Assembly (NCBI GenBank): GCA_944388145.1 | Contig: CALXHQ010000015.1 | Location: forward strand, 1-51,074 | Direction: 5' to 3' | Origin: an uncultured Gemmiger sp. | Lineage (GTDB): Bacteria > Bacillota > Clostridia > Oscillospirales > Ruminococcaceae | Length of the DNA stretch: 51,074 nucleotides | In this document: positions 45,807-51,074 of the stretch, in pieces | Position numbering within the stretch: the first letter of the stretch is position 1 | Layout: each line of letters opens with the position of its first letter | Notes under the pieces: model-generated | Told to the model about the DNA's origin: nothing | What the model saw: only the letters and a program-made list of their open reading frames with translations | The model's database searches: none | Position numbers and translations under genes: made by a program

Positions 45807-45835
45807 TTGACGCGCCGCCCCAAATTTGCTATACT
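45807..45835 (+). promoter_or_regulatory. Promoter of the tRNA-Ser region
   Basis: -35 TTGACG, 17-bp spacer and -10 TATACT, near consensus. The predicted start near 45842 lies 37 nt before the first tRNA-half copy and about 420 nt before the intact tRNA. Confidence 0.85.
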
Positions 45836-45878
45836 ATACAAGTACGCTCGGCCGAATTTTCCGCCGCGGCGACCATAG

Positions 45879-46069
45879 GGAGATGTACTCAAGAGGTCGT
45901 AAGAGGGAGCACTCGAAAGTTTGCAGCCCGCTGGCCGATTCGTCCGCTAGGAATGGCGTGACGGCGGGATTTTCCCGGGGTATGCATCCGGTTATTATCC
46001 GCTTATCTTGCATCGAAATCTTGCATTTTTCCGAAAGGTTTGCAAGGCGGTGCTGGAAAAATTAAATAT
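45879..46069 (+). repeat. 191-bp unit 1 with a 40-nt tRNA-Ser 5' half
   Basis: The first 40 nt (GGAGATGTAC...CTCGAAA) are identical to the 5' half of the tRNA at 46261, through the acceptor strand, D arm, anticodon 5' stem and the 7-nt anticodon loop. The next 151 nt (GTTTGCAGCC...TAAATAT) are unrelated to the tRNA 3' half, so this copy cannot make a tRNA. It differs from unit 2 at 6 positions only, all in the middle of the spacer. The spacer has no gene and no ribosome site. Confidence 0.93.
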
Positions 46070-46260
46070 GGAGATGTACTCAAGAGGTCGTAAGAGGGAG
46101 CACTCGAAAGTTTGCAGCCCGCTGGCCGATTCGTCCGCCGCGAAAGGCGTGACGGTGGGATTTCCCCGGGGTATGCATCCGGTTATTATCCGCTTATCTT
46201 GCATCGAAATCTTGCATTTTTCCGAAAGGTTTGCAAGGCGGTGCTGGAAAAATTAAATAT
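46070..46260 (+). repeat. 191-bp unit 2 with a 40-nt tRNA-Ser 5' half
   Basis: A second unit of the same length directly follows the first; the intact tRNA starts exactly one period (191 bp) later. The tRNA half is again identical over 40 nt. At its end TTGCAA-17-TAAATA forms promoter-like hexamers right before the tRNA start, too close to give a full tRNA transcript. Four of the 6 differences from unit 1 fall in a 7-bp block (TAGGAAT versus CGCGAAA). Confidence 0.93.
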
Positions 46261-46352
46261 GGAGATGTACTCAAGAGGTCGTAAGAGGGAGCACTCGAAA
46301 TGCTTTAGGTCTCGAGAGAGGCGCGTGGGTTCGACTCCCACCATCTCCGCCA
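46261..46352 (+). tRNA. tRNA-Ser (anticodon CGA)
   Basis: GGAGATG pairs with CATCTCC as the acceptor stem, followed by G and an encoded CCA. The anticodon stem GAGCA/TGCTT holds the loop CTCGAAA (anticodon CGA, reads UCG). The T arm is GTGGG-TTCGACT-CCCAC. The long variable arm with TCTCGAGAGA is typical of serine tRNAs. Its 5' half is shared with the two upstream repeats; a terminator follows. Confidence 0.96.
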
Positions 46353-46355
46353 AAT

Positions 46356-46384
46356 CCCTCAGGAATCTTCCTGAGGGTATTTTT
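46356..46384 (+). terminator. Terminator of the tRNA-Ser gene
   Basis: CCCTCAGG pairs with CCTGAGGG around AATCTT and is followed by TATTTTT. It starts 4 nt after the CCA. Confidence 0.9.
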
Positions 46385-46428: not shown

Positions 46429-46989
46429 ATGCCGACATTTACCATCGTGGGCGGGGTCAACGGGGCAGGCAAGAGCAGCCTGTCCGGTGTGCTGAAGGAT
46501 TGCTTGGACGACTTGGGCGTTATCGTGGACCCCGACAGGCTGACCGCCCAGCACGGCGGCGATGAGTACGCCGGGGGCCAGGCTGCCGTTGCCAAACTGC
46601 AGGACTGCCTGGCCCAGGGCATCGACTTCACCGAGGAAAGCACCCTTTCGGGCAGCTTTTCCCGCAAAATGGCCCGCGCGGCCCGGGACAAGGGCTACAC
46701 CGTGCGGCTGTACTATGTGGGCCTGGATACCGCCGAGGAATCGGTCCGTCGGATCGCCAACCGGGTGGCCCGCGGTGGCCACGACATCCCGACCCAGGAC
46801 GTGGAACGCCGGTTTGCCCGGCGTTTCCGGGACCTGGGCAAGCTGCTGCCGCTGTGCAATGAAGCAACCTTCTATGACAACGACAATGGCTTCCGGGTGG
46901 TGGCTTTCTATCGCAACGGGGAACTGCTGCCCGCAACCGATACACCGCCTGTCTGGCTCACCGATCTGCGTCGGGAGCTCGCGCTCTGA
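46429..46989 (+). CDS. Zeta-toxin-like P-loop kinase
   Basis: 186 aa starting at ATG 46429 behind GGGAGG. The Walker A is GGVNGAGKSS (8-17); DPDR (34-37), EEST (69-72), a helix with SRKMARAARDKGYTVRLYYVGLD, and RGGHDIPTQDVERRFARRF with the lid arginines complete a zeta/PezT-like fold. Zeta toxins phosphorylate UDP-N-acetylglucosamine and are held off by an epsilon antitoxin. No epsilon gene is adjacent, so this may be a solitary, tamed family member. It sits between the tRNA and the integrase gene and may be cargo of the element. Confidence 0.78.
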   Translation: MPTFTIVGGVNGAGKSSLSGVLKDCLDDLGVIVDPDRLTAQHGGDEYAGGQAAVAKLQDCLAQGIDFTEESTLSGSFSRKMARAARDKGYTVRLYYVGLDTAEESVRRIANRVARGGHDIPTQDVERRFARRFRDLGKLLPLCNEATFYDNDNGFRVVAFYRNGELLPATDTPPVWLTDLRRELAL

Positions 46990-47001: not shown

Positions 47002-48189
47002 TTACCACCGGTTTTCGGGTAGCTCTTCCGGCAGCGGCAGTGCCTGTTCCATCGTGGCGGCGCTGAGCTGCTTGGACTGAGAATCCAGGTGGGCGTAGAT
47101 GTTGGCCGTGGTGGAGATGTCGCTGTGACCCAGCCATTCCTGGATCTGCTTCATCGGCACGCCCTGCTTCAGCAGCAGGCTGGCGCAGGAGTGGCGCAGA
47201 TCGTGGAACCGGATCTTCCGCAGGCTGTGGTCGGCCAGCAGCCTGGCAAATCCGTCGGTCACTGCGTTGGGGAGGACAAGATTGCCCATCTCATCCACGA
47301 ACAGGTAGCCCTTGTACTTCTGGTTGTAGCAGTTTCCGCAGAGTTTCTCGTTGTAGGCCTGCTGCTCCTTCAGCGCCCGCAGCCGCTGGGCGAAGCTGGC
47401 CACCAGAGGCAGGGTGCGCAGGCTAGATTTGGTCTTGGCCCGGTCGGCCTCCACCAGGACGTGTTTGCCCTCCAGGTTGGTGCTGGTCACGATGTGGCGG
47501 ATGGTTAAAGTGCCGGCCTCAAAGTCCACAGCGTCCCACCGCAGGCCCAGCACCTCGCCTCGGCGCAGCCCGTAGAAGGCTGCGAACTGGATGATCAGTT
47601 CCAGCCGGTGGCCCCGGGCCGCTTCAAACAGCTGCTCCATCTCCTCGGCGGTGTAGTAGGCGGCCAGATACTTCTCGGGCTTGGGCCGCTCCACCTTGTC
47701 CACCGGGTTGCCGGGGATCAGGTCCAGCTTCACGGCGTATTTCAGCGCCTTGTGCAGGTTGGCGTGCTGCCGCAGTACGCTGGTGGCTTTCAGCGTTTCC
47801 AGCTCGTGGAGATAGAAACTCTGGATGTGCCGTGCCTGCAGGCCGCCCAGCGTGATGCCGGTGGGCTCGAAGTAGGGGACGATGTGGTTCTTCACATTGA
47901 AGTTGTAGGAGGACCAGGTGGTTTCCTGCACGGCGGGGCGGATGATCTTCAGCCAGTAGAGCATATAGTCGCTGAACAGCATATCGGGGCTCAGTTCCTC
48001 TTTGCGGTTGGGTTTGGGCGGAGTGAAGCTGCGGCGCAGTTCCCGCAGCATCTCCTCCGCCCGCTTTTTGTTGCCCTTCACAGGCAGTCCGGTGGCGTGC
48101 CAGGGCTGTTTGCGCTTGCCGTCGGCACCGGTGTAGCTGAGCACCATGTAGTAATATCCGTTTTTCTCTTGCAGTCGGCCTGCTACCAT
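47002..48189 (-). CDS. Tyrosine recombinase (integrase)
   Basis: 395 aa. ATG 48189 is 8 nt from AAAGGAG; two in-frame ATGs upstream (48207 and 48195) overlap or abut it. Order: AP2-like arm-binding start (NGYYYMVLSYTGADGKRKQ), SAM-like core binding (about 70-170) and the catalytic domain with Arg209, Lys254, His329-x2-Arg332 (HDLRHS), His355 (LGHSD) and Tyr365. A CGNC pair (284-287) lies in the catalytic domain. It should catalyse site-specific integration and excision of the element beside the tRNA. It points to the tRNA, with the zeta-like gene between. Confidence 0.94.
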   Translation of the reverse strand: MVAGRLQEKNGYYYMVLSYTGADGKRKQPWHATGLPVKGNKKRAEEMLRELRRSFTPPKPNRKEELSPDMLFSDYMLYWLKIIRPAVQETTWSSYNFNVKNHIVPYFEPTGITLGGLQARHIQSFYLHELETLKATSVLRQHANLHKALKYAVKLDLIPGNPVDKVERPKPEKYLAAYYTAEEMEQLFEAARGHRLELIIQFAAFYGLRRGEVLGLRWDAVDFEAGTLTIRHIVTSTNLEGKHVLVEADRAKTKSSLRTLPLVASFAQRLRALKEQQAYNEKLCGNCYNQKYKGYLFVDEMGNLVLPNAVTDGFARLLADHSLRKIRFHDLRHSCASLLLKQGVPMKQIQEWLGHSDISTTANIYAHLDSQSKQLSAATMEQALPLPEELPENRW

Positions 48190-48319
48190 AGGCATTTCTC
48201 CTTTCATACTCGTTTGTACGGGTTTCCGGGTCCAACACAACAATACCCGGAATCCCCGGCAAAAGCTATTCACAAATCTACACAAGGATACGCCCTTGTC
48301 TTGGGTACGAATCTACCAA

Positions 48320-48369: not shown

Positions 48370-49749
48370 TCAGCGTTCCAGACCGCGGCGGCGCTTGCGG
48401 TGGCGGGCTTTTTCCTCGGCCCGCTGGCGGGCCTGTTCCTCCAGGGCCTTGCGGCAGGCGGTGGTGGCTCGTACCCTTCGGAGAATCCTGTCGCAGACTT
48501 CATCCTCGTGCCGCAGAGCCTTGATCTGGCGGGTCAGTTCAGCCCGGCGCTCAGCGGTGCCGGGCGGCGGGACCTTGTGCCGCAGCAGCCGGGCACAGTC
48601 GGCGCGCTCTTTGCAGAGAGCGTCAATCTGCGCCGCCAGTTCCCGGCGGTGGGCCTCCACCTCGTCGGTGGTGTGGAAATCCCGGTCAAAGCAGAGGTGC
48701 ATCTCCTCCAGCGTGCGCTCCACGTTGCGCCAGATCGCTTCGATCTCGGGCCAGTTGATGGACGCCCGGGGATTCGGCTTGACCTGCACCTTGTACCGGA
48801 AGTAGAGATACTGCCGGCCCAGGTGGGGCTTGCCGAAGAGTTCGTCCAGCAGTCCCTTGTACCGCACCTTGGCCCAGGAACGAAAGACCGGGCGCCTGGG
48901 ACGGTCATACCCGCCGAACAGGCTGTAATAGTGGGGGCCGAACTGGTAATAGTGGGCGTCCAGCACCCGGGCCAGCGCGGGCCAGTCGAACTCCGGGCCC
49001 AGGCGATGCACTCGCACCGGGCGGCCGCCGTCCACTGAGCGCAGCGTGGCGTACTTGCGGCCCTCCTCCCGCCGCCACAGATAGCCCATCTGCCGCAGGG
49101 CCAGGGCAAAGTCCTCCTCGGTGCTGGTCTGCTGGAGGGCGGAGCGCAGTGCCTCCCGCATCCGGTTGTACCGGGTGGGTTCGCCCCGGCGCTCCGCTTC
49201 GTAGAGGGGGCGCGGCGGGCTTTTGCCCAGGGGCTGTACCACTGACAGCCCCTGGGCCCGGCAGAGGGCGTCGGAGGCGCGGCGCAGTTCCCGGTACTGG
49301 CTGCGGCGCTGCTCGTACTTTTTGCCATCCACATAAGACACCGCGTTGATGACAAAGTGGTTGTGCAGGCAGTGGGTGTTCATGTGGGTGGCCACCAACA
49401 CTTGGAAACGCCCGCCCCACACCTGCCGGGCCAGCTCCACCCCGATGGCGTGGCACTGTTCCGGGGTTACCTCGCCGGGCTGGAAACTCTGGTAGGCGTG
49501 CATCGCCACCACGCCCTCGGTCTTGCCGAACTTCCGCTGCACCGCCCGCATATCCGCCCAGGCGGTTTCGGGGCGGCAGTGGATGCCGCTCACCAGTTTT
49601 GCGCTTTCCGGCAAGGTGGTCTTGGCGTCGTTCCCGGCGTAGTGCAGCGCCTGGGACAGGGCACCGTATTCGGTTTTTTCCGGGTTGGCGGCATAGTCCA
49701 CCACCCGGCGCAGGTTGTCCCGCACCGGCCAGATCTTGGTGACGGCCAG
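48370..49749 (-). CDS. MobP-type relaxase with an apparent CTG start
   Basis: 459 aa if translation begins at CTG 49749, which gives (M)AVTKIWPVRDNLRRVVDYAANPEKT, the conserved N-terminus of this family, 6 nt from AAGGAG. The first ATG/GTG choice, GTG 49725, would lose 8 conserved residues. The family shows a Tyr in VVDYAANPEKT and a His cluster THMNTHCLHNHF (His122, 126, 129 and 131) that binds the metal. It nicks oriT and pilots the strand for mobilization. An Arg/Lys-rich coiled tail (about 350-459) follows. It starts 3 nt after the mobC-like stop. Confidence 0.9.
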   Translation of the reverse strand: MAVTKIWPVRDNLRRVVDYAANPEKTEYGALSQALHYAGNDAKTTLPESAKLVSGIHCRPETAWADMRAVQRKFGKTEGVVAMHAYQSFQPGEVTPEQCHAIGVELARQVWGGRFQVLVATHMNTHCLHNHFVINAVSYVDGKKYEQRRSQYRELRRASDALCRAQGLSVVQPLGKSPPRPLYEAERRGEPTRYNRMREALRSALQQTSTEEDFALALRQMGYLWRREEGRKYATLRSVDGGRPVRVHRLGPEFDWPALARVLDAHYYQFGPHYYSLFGGYDRPRRPVFRSWAKVRYKGLLDELFGKPHLGRQYLYFRYKVQVKPNPRASINWPEIEAIWRNVERTLEEMHLCFDRDFHTTDEVEAHRRELAAQIDALCKERADCARLLRHKVPPPGTAERRAELTRQIKALRHEDEVCDRILRRVRATTACRKALEEQARQRAEEKARHRKRRRGLER

Positions 49750-49752
49750 AGA

Positions 49753-50022
49753 TTACTCCTTCGGCAGCAGGGCATCCCGGATCTGGTCTGTGGCCGCCCG
49801 GCAGGAGAGCGCGTCCCCGGGCGGCAGAAGGTCCGCCAGCGCGTCCAGTTCTTCAAGAGCGGAAAACAAAGACGCGGGCGGATGAAACTGCGGTGTGTAC
49901 CCCAGTGCCTGCTGCCGGAGATATTCCGACAGCGTCAGGCCGCAGCGACGGGCAGCGGATTCCATCCGGCGCTTTTCAGCCGGTGTCACCCGCACGTTGA
50001 TACCCACGGTGCGGTTTCTCAC
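49753..50022 (-). CDS. mobC: Ribbon-helix-helix mobilization protein (MobC-like)
   Basis: 89 aa from GTG 50022, which is 7 nt from GGGAGG and overlaps the upstream gene by 4 bp (GTGA). The start RNRTVGINVRVTPAEKRRMESAARRCGLTLSEYLRQQALG is the RHH plus helix pattern of MobC-type relaxase accessory proteins, which bind oriT and help open it. The tail (FSALEELDALADLLPPGD) is helical. The short gap to the relaxase, its site being within the mobC-like 3' end, suggests coupled translation. Confidence 0.82.
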   Translation of the reverse strand: MRNRTVGINVRVTPAEKRRMESAARRCGLTLSEYLRQQALGYTPQFHPPASLFSALEELDALADLLPPGDALSCRAATDQIRDALLPKE

Positions 50023-51074
50023 GAGGAAGCCTCCCGTGAGAAATCGGGGTTCGGGGCCGTCCCCGTAGGAGCGGCGGTGTCCGCCGCGGCGAAGGGGTGC
50101 CCGTCGGCAACACAAAGCCCATGCTCGCTACCGTGATGCGGCCCCGGTGACGGTGATGACGACGATGACGGTACGGGGGCCGCACCCTCTTCACCAGCCG
50201 GTACCGTACCAGACGGTAAAGGGGATCTGCCGGGATCATCGTCACTACCGTCATGACCGTCATCTTCGTCATAGATGAAGCACAGCAGCCGGGTGTTGGA
50301 GGTGCGCCGGGACTGGTAGCGGATGCCCTGCGGGGCAAACACCGTGTAGAAGTGCTCCACCAGTTTGCGTGTGAACTGATTGGGCAGCACATCGGTGATG
50401 CCCGCAGCGGTCAGCAGTTCGGTGGCGGTGCCTGTCCAGCTGCCGATGTGCTGGATAAAGTCCGCCGCCCGCCACAGATAGTCCGGGACGGCCTTTCGGA
50501 CCTGCTCCTCAGCGGATTCCTCCTCCAACAGCTGCCAGATGCAATCCCGGGTCTGCAGGTGGAGGGTGCAGCTGTCCATGTCACGGCCCGTCACCAGCAG
50601 CCGGGCCGTGTCGCTCATCCGCTGGCGCTGCAGCAGCCAAATGGTGTCGGCGGCGCCCATCAGGCCGTTGGACCCGGAAATCTGCTGGAACGGGTCGGAT
50701 GCGCCCTGTTTGCGCAGATGATGCACCAGCAGCAGCCCGATACCGCGGCGGTCCGCCAGGGATTTCAGCGCGCTCATATCCTGATAATCGCTGGCGTAAG
50801 CGCCGTTGTTCGGGTCGGCGGCGCGGACCTTCTGCAAGGTGTCGATGACCACCAGCCCGGTTTCGGGGTGTTGGGACAGAAATTTCTCGATCTGGAGTTC
50901 CAGCCCGTCCCCGATGGCGCAGCTTCCGGTCTGGAAGTACAACCGGCTGGGAACGGAGTCCTCGGTCAGGCGGAACAAACGCCCCTGGATGCGGGCATAG
51001 GTGTCCTCCAGACAGAGGTACAGTACAGTCTGTGGCTGGGTGGTGCGGCCCCAGATCTCGCCGCCCCGGGCCAG
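50019..51074 (-). CDS. RepA-like AAA/RecA-fold ATPase (partial)
   Basis: The window edge cuts off the N-terminus, including Walker A; 351 aa remain. Seen are LYLCLEDTYARIQGRL, the Walker B strand GLVVIDTLQKVR, LLLVHHLRKQ and SGSNGLMGAADTIWLLQR, as in RepA/hexameric helicase-type ATPases of integrative and mobilizable elements. The C-terminal 90 residues are acidic, then Ser/Pro/His-rich and of low complexity (DEDDGHDGSDDDP). RepA-type helicases unwind the element's origin after excision. It overlaps the mobC-like gene by 4 bp and is read as the first of a RepA-MobC-relaxase unit. Confidence 0.8.
   Translation of the reverse strand: MARGGEIWGRTTQPQTVLYLCLEDTYARIQGRLFRLTEDSVPSRLYFQTGSCAIGDGLELQIEKFLSQHPETGLVVIDTLQKVRAADPNNGAYASDYQDMSALKSLADRRGIGLLLVHHLRKQGASDPFQQISGSNGLMGAADTIWLLQRQRMSDTARLLVTGRDMDSCTLHLQTRDCIWQLLEEESAEEQVRKAVPDYLWRAADFIQHIGSWTGTATELLTAAGITDVLPNQFTRKLVEHFYTVFAPQGIRYQSRRTSNTRLLCFIYDEDDGHDGSDDDPGRSPLPSGTVPAGEEGAAPVPSSSSSPSPGPHHGSEHGLCVADGHPFAAADTAAPTGTAPNPDFSREASS

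Follow-up and report, generated by a model that had tools for sequence, protein, structure and literature searches.

tRNA-dependent lysogeny is known from actinobacteriophages (Guerrero-Bustamante & Hatfull 2024, PMC10865867), with common cores of 8-17 bp in the table of that paper. The tRNA of Fionnbharth has a strong promoter of its own. The authors consider cases beyond the actinobacteriophages plausible, naming Lj965 in Lactobacillus, and call for further study of prevalence. The archaeal pTN3-like integrases (PMC8371274) are likewise among the closest known systems. For the tRNA-targeted islands of Islander (PMC4383910), crossover in the anticodon loop, tandem arrays and 5′ tDNA fragments are all on record, and in ICE/IME accretion in Streptococcus suis (PMC7168690) mobilizable elements accumulate at a single tRNA-gene or protein-gene site.

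The tRNA-Ser(CGA) locus analysed here, taken together with its relatives, shares with tRNA-dependent lysogeny a tyrosine integrase, a short core, a resident tRNA that is destroyed and not rebuilt, an element-encoded cognate tRNA and putative arm-type sites flanking the core. It differs in that the carriers, in Gemmiger and its relatives, bear a relaxase and are not phages by the genes seen. The tRNA lies approximately 151 nt inside the left end and behind the resident promoter and, unlike that of Fionnbharth, shows no promoter of its own by consensus score; the imported tRNA would itself be the next target, giving nested 5′-half arrays. In Islander islands the fragment regenerates the same tRNA, whereas here a whole foreign tRNA gene is involved; the part of the S. 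suis paper cited here makes no mention of a replacement tRNA or a 5′-half array. tRNA-dependent lysogeny itself is already known; promoter capture, a self-renewing target and nested 5′-half arrays seem to be new. In a literature search that lay mostly outside subscription papers, no title or beginning of an abstract described such an array or an element-borne promoterless tRNA.

We read the array as the 5′ footprint of probably two, and at least one, relaxase-bearing elements nested in tRNA-Ser(CGA), and put the probability of this reading at about 0.88. Such an origin is well supported by sequence comparison with relatives, in which split cognate halves, a foreign whole tRNA, nesting, arm repeats and integrase linkage are all seen.

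The array and the element downstream

The window, that is, the whole 51,074-nt stretch analysed, contains two tandem units of 191 bp (45875-46065 and 46066-46256) that are 96% identical to each other and lie upstream of an intact tRNA-Ser(CGA) gene. As the preliminary description had it, each unit is made up of a 40-nt tRNA 5′ half and a 151-nt spacer, the intact gene supplies the third copy of the half (46261-46300), and the halves run to the end of the anticodon loop (CTCGAAA). All three halves are identical, and ARAGORN found a single tRNA in the window. The features, with the halves and spacers numbered in the tRNA register, are as follows.

45807-45835, + strand: sigma-70-type promoter-like site, TTGACG-17-TATACT (12.7 bits), taken as the resident tRNA promoter and expected to transcribe the whole array
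45879-45918, + strand: outermost orphan 5′ half of tRNA-Ser, with the insertion core CTCGAAA at its end (45912-45918)
45919-46069, + strand: spacer 1 (151 nt), read as the older element's attachment arm; direct repeats ATCTTGCAT at 46005-46013 and 46018-46026
46070-46109, + strand: second orphan tRNA-Ser 5′ half, read as the remnant of the older element's tRNA split by the newer element
46110-46260, + strand: spacer 2 (151 nt), read as the newest element's attachment arm; direct repeats ATCTTGCAT at 46196-46204 and 46209-46217
46261-46352, + strand: intact tRNA-Ser(CGA), interpreted as brought in by the element; no other tRNA-Ser(CGA) gene was found in the draft
46294-46300, + strand: anticodon loop of the intact tRNA-Ser(CGA), the would-be target for further insertions
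46356-46384, + strand: terminator-like hairpin with T run, 3′ of the tRNA, recognised in the sequence and also present in the predicted fold
46429-46989, + strand: zeta-toxin-like kinase gene carried as cargo by the newest element (PF06414, E 6.5e-12)
47002-48198, - strand: tyrosine integrase gene of the newest element, start codon approximate (PF00589, E 1e-28; PF14659)
48370-49725, - strand: MobA/VirD2-type relaxase (PF03432)
49753-50115, - strand: NikA-like mobilization protein (PF21983)
50019-50978, - strand: AAA_25 protein overlapping the NikA-like frame (319 aa, vs 448 aa in the G026 relative)

The genes downstream of the tRNA thus run in the order zeta-toxin-like kinase, tyrosine integrase, MobA/VirD2 relaxase, NikA-like protein and AAA_25 protein, and the element encodes its own integrase and relaxase, as IMEs do. 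The kinase gene directly follows the tRNA, and among the relatives examined its matches show 91-100% identity. Only the first 4.7 kb of the newest element is covered by the window assembly; contig C15 stops at 51074, and the far end of the element lies outside it. Exact patterns built from relatives found no orphan 3′ halves or right ends in the window genome. As the contig ends without 3′ halves, nesting in the window strain is read from relatives, and we infer that the same layout continues downstream of the contig. The first 5′ half in the window is of the element type and not of a visibly different resident type, so that a lost unit or a conversion is required.

An assembly error confined to the window draft is improbable, as two single-contig genomes, G026 and G034, carry arrays of this type. 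The tRNA-Ser genes found in the draft genome were one each for CGA, UGA, GGA and GCT. No tRNA for Ile or Asn was found in it; the draft tRNA set is therefore incomplete, and the genome may hold a second tRNA-Ser(CGA). In addition, tRNA-Ser(UGA) might also read UCG, so that the CGA tRNA may not be strictly required.

Split tRNAs and nested elements in relatives

The genus set comprised 35 Gemmiger genomes, of which G034 is one contig and G026 is one contig taken as circular. The window region matched many tRNA-Ser loci across these genomes. A pattern derived from the spacer recovered 22 stretches, with titles naming Gemmiger (16), Ruthenibacterium (2), Fournierella (2) or a wider name (2). Many of these relatives have the order 5′ half, spacer of approximately 150 nt, intact tRNA-Ser(CGA), and the upstream half is often from another tRNA-Ser than the intact gene. 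Searching relatives for the spacer and the half had been proposed at the outset; it revealed arrays at many Gemmiger loci, tied to integrase-bearing elements.

In G034 the order is promoter, 5′ half (GGAGCAT..), spacer, intact tRNA (GGAGATG), element and right end. The right end, 21.5 kb downstream of the intact tRNA, reads ACAAAA / CTCGAAA / TGCGATAGG..ATGCTCC, which is the 3′ half of the resident. The outer halves pair at 7/7 and 5/5 positions, whereas the resident 5′ half pairs with the 3′ half of the element's tRNA at only 4/7 and 3/5, and the intact tRNA differs from the split resident in both halves. With its cognate outer halves and its foreign whole tRNA, G034 shows a resident gene cut apart at the anticodon loop by an element that brought along a complete tRNA-Ser(CGA) of another type. 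The preliminary description had the element supply a 5′ half at each insertion; a half is supplied, but as part of a whole tRNA. Its proposal that a tyrosine-integrase element integrates at the anticodon loop is borne out by these relatives.

The right-end pattern ACAAAACTCGAAAT occurred at 10 places in 8 of the 35 genus genomes, and in every case a tRNA-Ser 3′ half follows. The full-length integrase most similar to that of the window (99% identical) is found in G010; there the right end lies approximately 26 kb from the intact tRNA, and the outer halves pair at 7/7 and 4/5 positions. The first of the right ends in G008 comes 16.4 kb downstream. Elements in related Gemmiger measure approximately 16-26 kb, and one of 43 kb holds another insert. 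The insertion core is the 8-nt ACTCGAAA, in relatives a shared stretch of 7-8 nt, and the resident tRNA is not rebuilt, its cognate halves being separated by the element. A classical tRNA-site island, whose attP contains a fragment of the tRNA that restores the resident gene, would share the tyrosine integrase and the anticodon-loop crossover, and islands leaving 5′ fragments do exist (159/3919 in Islander; PMC4383910), but the shared core of only 7-8 nt and the working tRNA of G034, foreign in both halves, speak against it. We regard such an island as extremely unlikely, contradicted as it is by G034.

A comparison with an empty tRNA-Ser(CGA) locus had also been proposed, and was achieved in part. 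Uninterrupted single tRNAs are present in G019, G023, G027, G028 and G029, and the left flank of G023 is 90% identical to that of G008 over 3.1 kb up to the tRNA, but none of the right flanks tested aligned with occupied genomes, leaving no clean empty site among them. The right flank of G023 contains element DNA.

Nesting is seen most fully in G026. Its 5′ halves are of h type, A type and A type, the last being intact, and three 3′ halves follow in the reverse order, with the A-type 3′ half 26 kb past the intact tRNA and the h-type 3′ half approximately 43 kb further on, across the record origin. This is the order expected if element 2 had inserted in the tRNA of element 1, and element 1 in the resident tRNA. 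The outer interval holds a further insert, and the middle 5′ half is chimeric, with an anticodon stem that matches its supposed partner at 3/5 positions. In G002, 5′ and 3′ halves number three each and are spread over three contigs. Two genomes depart from this scheme: in G008 two 5′ halves stand against three 3′ halves, of which the h-type one comes first, an order that is not simple nesting, and G022 has one 5′ half against two 3′ halves, in an array without a spacer. These exceptions would require loss of units by recombination between 5′ halves.

Unit number varied, as the preliminary description had asked to be counted: among 40 distinct intact loci scored by pattern, 13 had no unit, 18 had one, 7 had two and 2 had three. 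This count was restricted to loci with a fully paired innermost acceptor stem, so that intactness there is by selection, and the pattern undercounts, since the outermost 5′ half has decayed at L140, L142 and L144. The halves were not all identical in 23 of the 27 arrays with units, and the stems of 31/38 outer halves differ from those of the innermost tRNA. At L155 (G179 C29; 1033-1112) two orphan 5′ halves are only 39 nt apart, one attachment arm seemingly having been shortened.

These counts also bear on local tandem duplication, in which a single insertion would have left one unit that was then copied by unequal recombination. The three identical halves and the 96% identity of the units in the window would fit such a course; the window is among the 4/27 arrays in which all halves are identical, and recombination within arrays seems to occur, judging from the chimeric half in G026 and the spacerless array in G022. 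Against it stand the 23 mixed arrays, with four half types each in L012 and L152, and the spacers of the window itself. Two other genomes have spacers that are 2 nt away from spacer 1, and the G034 spacer is 4 nt from spacer 2, compared with 6 nt between the two window spacers. Each window spacer is therefore nearer to spacers of other genomes, which makes two insertions likelier than a duplication, although the margin for spacer 2 is small. We consider duplication unlikely as the origin of the array, and retain the reading of nested insertions.

The spacer and the promoter

The spacer is conserved at the DNA level, and its length is nearly constant, 29/38 spacers measuring 150-152 nt. Of 37 distinct spacers, 22 contain an exact direct repeat (7 nt or longer, period 13), which begins at position 86-87 in 21 of the 22; the remaining 15/37 had no exact period-13 repeat in this strict search. 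The repeat sequence is lineage-specific (ATCTTGCAT, GTTCTCTCC, GTTCTTTCC and TGTACGCCCT), and ATCTTGCA repeats reappear near the right end of Gemmiger elements. Paired repeats in the spacer and their recurrence near the right end are the layout expected of integrase arm sites, and the spacer probably serves the element as its attachment arm.

The preliminary description had raised a mini-element of about 191 bp duplicating itself at the tRNA, or a larger element reduced to 151 bp, and the near-fixed unit length would suit either. Constant length also fits an attachment arm, however, and in relatives integrase-bearing bodies lie just downstream of the intact tRNAs, with the missing 3′ halves at their far ends. 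Both forms of the idea are contradicted by G034 and G026, and their probability is next to negligible; the 151 nt look like an arm whose element body lies beyond the tRNA.

A single promoter shared by all copies had been proposed, and one promoter-like site does lie before the array, from which all copies would be transcribed. For 28 outermost halves, drawn from arrays that have a unit and 120 nt of sequence ahead of it, the median of the best sigma-70 score was 14.6 bits, against 6.9 in 36 spacers and 6.5 in shuffled spacers (95th percentile of the latter, 10.0); only 2/36 spacers exceeded 10 bits. The test value was 2e-10, but the rows are related, so that their independence is overstated. 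Upstream scores were low at two loci, L003 (7.7) and L154 (5.3); the L003 stretch is itself a spacer whose outer half was missed by the pattern, and L154 is unexplained. Since high scores are found before the outermost half and not in spacers, the imported tRNA probably captures the resident promoter. The simplest reading of these scores would be an imported tRNA without its own promoter, transcribed from the resident promoter through all the orphan halves.

In the predicted thermodynamic fold of the window transcript, the 3′ acceptor strand pairs with the intact 5′ half with a probability of 0.52 and with orphan half 1 with 0.47, and the intact anticodon stem forms with a probability of approximately 0.18. 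As orphan half 1 rivals the intact half for the acceptor strand in this fold, long arrays might tax tRNA maturation. The same competition, and the expected co-transcription of all copies behind one promoter, would suit repeats retained for an RNA function, such as 5′ tRNA-half RNAs or a processed leader, which had been offered as a further explanation. Unit number from 0 to 3, decay of the outermost halves at L140, L142 and L144, and the frequency of outer halves with other stems argue against such a function, as does, more weakly, the lack of an RNAalifold consensus structure in the one alignment tested, of 19 spacers. Identity of the halves beside drifted spacers, which had been pointed out, is real but carries little weight: the two window units differ at six positions, 0/40 in the 5′ half and 6/151 in the spacer, and six random changes over 191 nt would avoid the half with P=0.24, making its identity unremarkable. 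Retention for an RNA function is thus very unlikely.

The course of events that we propose under the reading of nested insertions is as follows. The element's tyrosine integrase would recombine its core with the anticodon loop of the resident tRNA-Ser(CGA), splitting that gene so that the 5′ half remains behind the promoter and the 3′ half is displaced to the element's far end. A complete and seemingly promoterless tRNA-Ser(CGA) would lie within the element near its left end, following the attachment arm of about 151 nt, and would be expressed by read-through from the resident promoter, with RNase P presumably trimming the long leader. The imported tRNA would then present a fresh target, so that elements nest, and each later insertion would add an orphan 5′ half and an arm upstream and an orphan 3′ half downstream.

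Carriers, distribution and significance

The inner element of G026 also has genes for type I restriction-modification and an IS21-like pair; a possible excisionase, an HTH_17 protein, is encoded close to its right end. No phage structural families were found in 19 scanned proteins of this one element, a set that does not take in every frame. Nor did these 19 proteins include a conjugative secretion system, five frames (one of 711 aa) and any gene spanning the join of the two stretches analysed being outside the scan. From their genes, the carriers seem not to be phages.

Integrase matches (E <= 1e-120) were found at 26 places in 24 of 297 sampled family genomes. An intact tRNA adjoins 20 of the 26 integrases, at a distance of 81-684 nt; 19 are tRNA-Ser(CGA) and one is tRNA-Leu(CAA). 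An orphan 5′ half accompanies 14 of these 20 tRNAs by pattern and four more by eye (L140, L142, L144 and L157, the last a tRNA-Leu half). Three integrases (L141, L146 and L156) have only an orphan 3′ half beside them, as expected of outer elements. The remaining three are L145, which is cut, L158, which is part of a split gene, and L148, which has no such tRNA.

At L157 (G150 C1, around 1376628) an integrase 49-51% identical adjoins the tRNA-Leu(CAA), with an orphan tRNA-Leu 5′ half, a spacer and one promoter-like site, and this architecture is that of the Ser(CGA)-type array at a different tRNA. In some of the elements another stretch of DNA interrupts the integrase gene, always at one point in the codons of the HDLRH catalytic motif, with an identical junction on the C-terminal side in four genomes (L033 13159-13348 with L053 11719-12726 in G026; L034 3830-4018; L043 126-314; L084 70-258). 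The other side was seen in G026 only, where the gene parts are approximately 23.6 kb apart; the segment may be an element that targets integrase genes.

Junctions of the circle type, running from right end through core to arm, are present in the faecal scaffold MT836946 and in contig C118 of G300; head-to-tail copies would fit them too. Continued mobility of the elements would be in keeping with our reading. The junction in MT836946.1 (L175, 3457-3879), a record labelled Bacteriophage sp., runs from a right-end-like arm through CTCGAAA and a spacer to an intact tRNA-Ser(CGA). Five such 'Bacteriophage sp.' faecal scaffolds were inspected and one had an attP-like junction; these records may be mobilizable elements labelled as phage. 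In the phage collection 2/2383 records matched at 60-80% identity, and in the plasmid collection all 665 matching records were below 60%. An IMG/VR scan with the integrase gave one match at 24% identity, which was not used as evidence.

At slightly better than even odds, we expect these elements to form a widespread class in gut bacteria that replaces tRNAs by promoter capture. The imported tRNA-Ser(CGA) would be silent until integrated behind a resident promoter, would then become the cell's sole copy and would recreate the landing site, so that the gene is perpetually owned by elements and swapped between them. Imprecise loss of the left end would be penalised much as a lost antidote is, and the array would be a history of insertions.

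With this finding, tRNA-dependent integration would reach beyond actinobacteriophages to take in relaxase-bearing elements of gut Oscillospiraceae, and would gain two features, promoter capture and a self-renewing target that permits nesting. The finding offers an explanation for odd tRNA fragments in annotation, and points to the integrase-plus-tRNA cassette as a possible integration vector for bacteria that resist manipulation. The family-wide set provides testable cases outside the actinobacteriophages, in which a housekeeping tRNA would be replaceable, repeatedly, by foreign copies.
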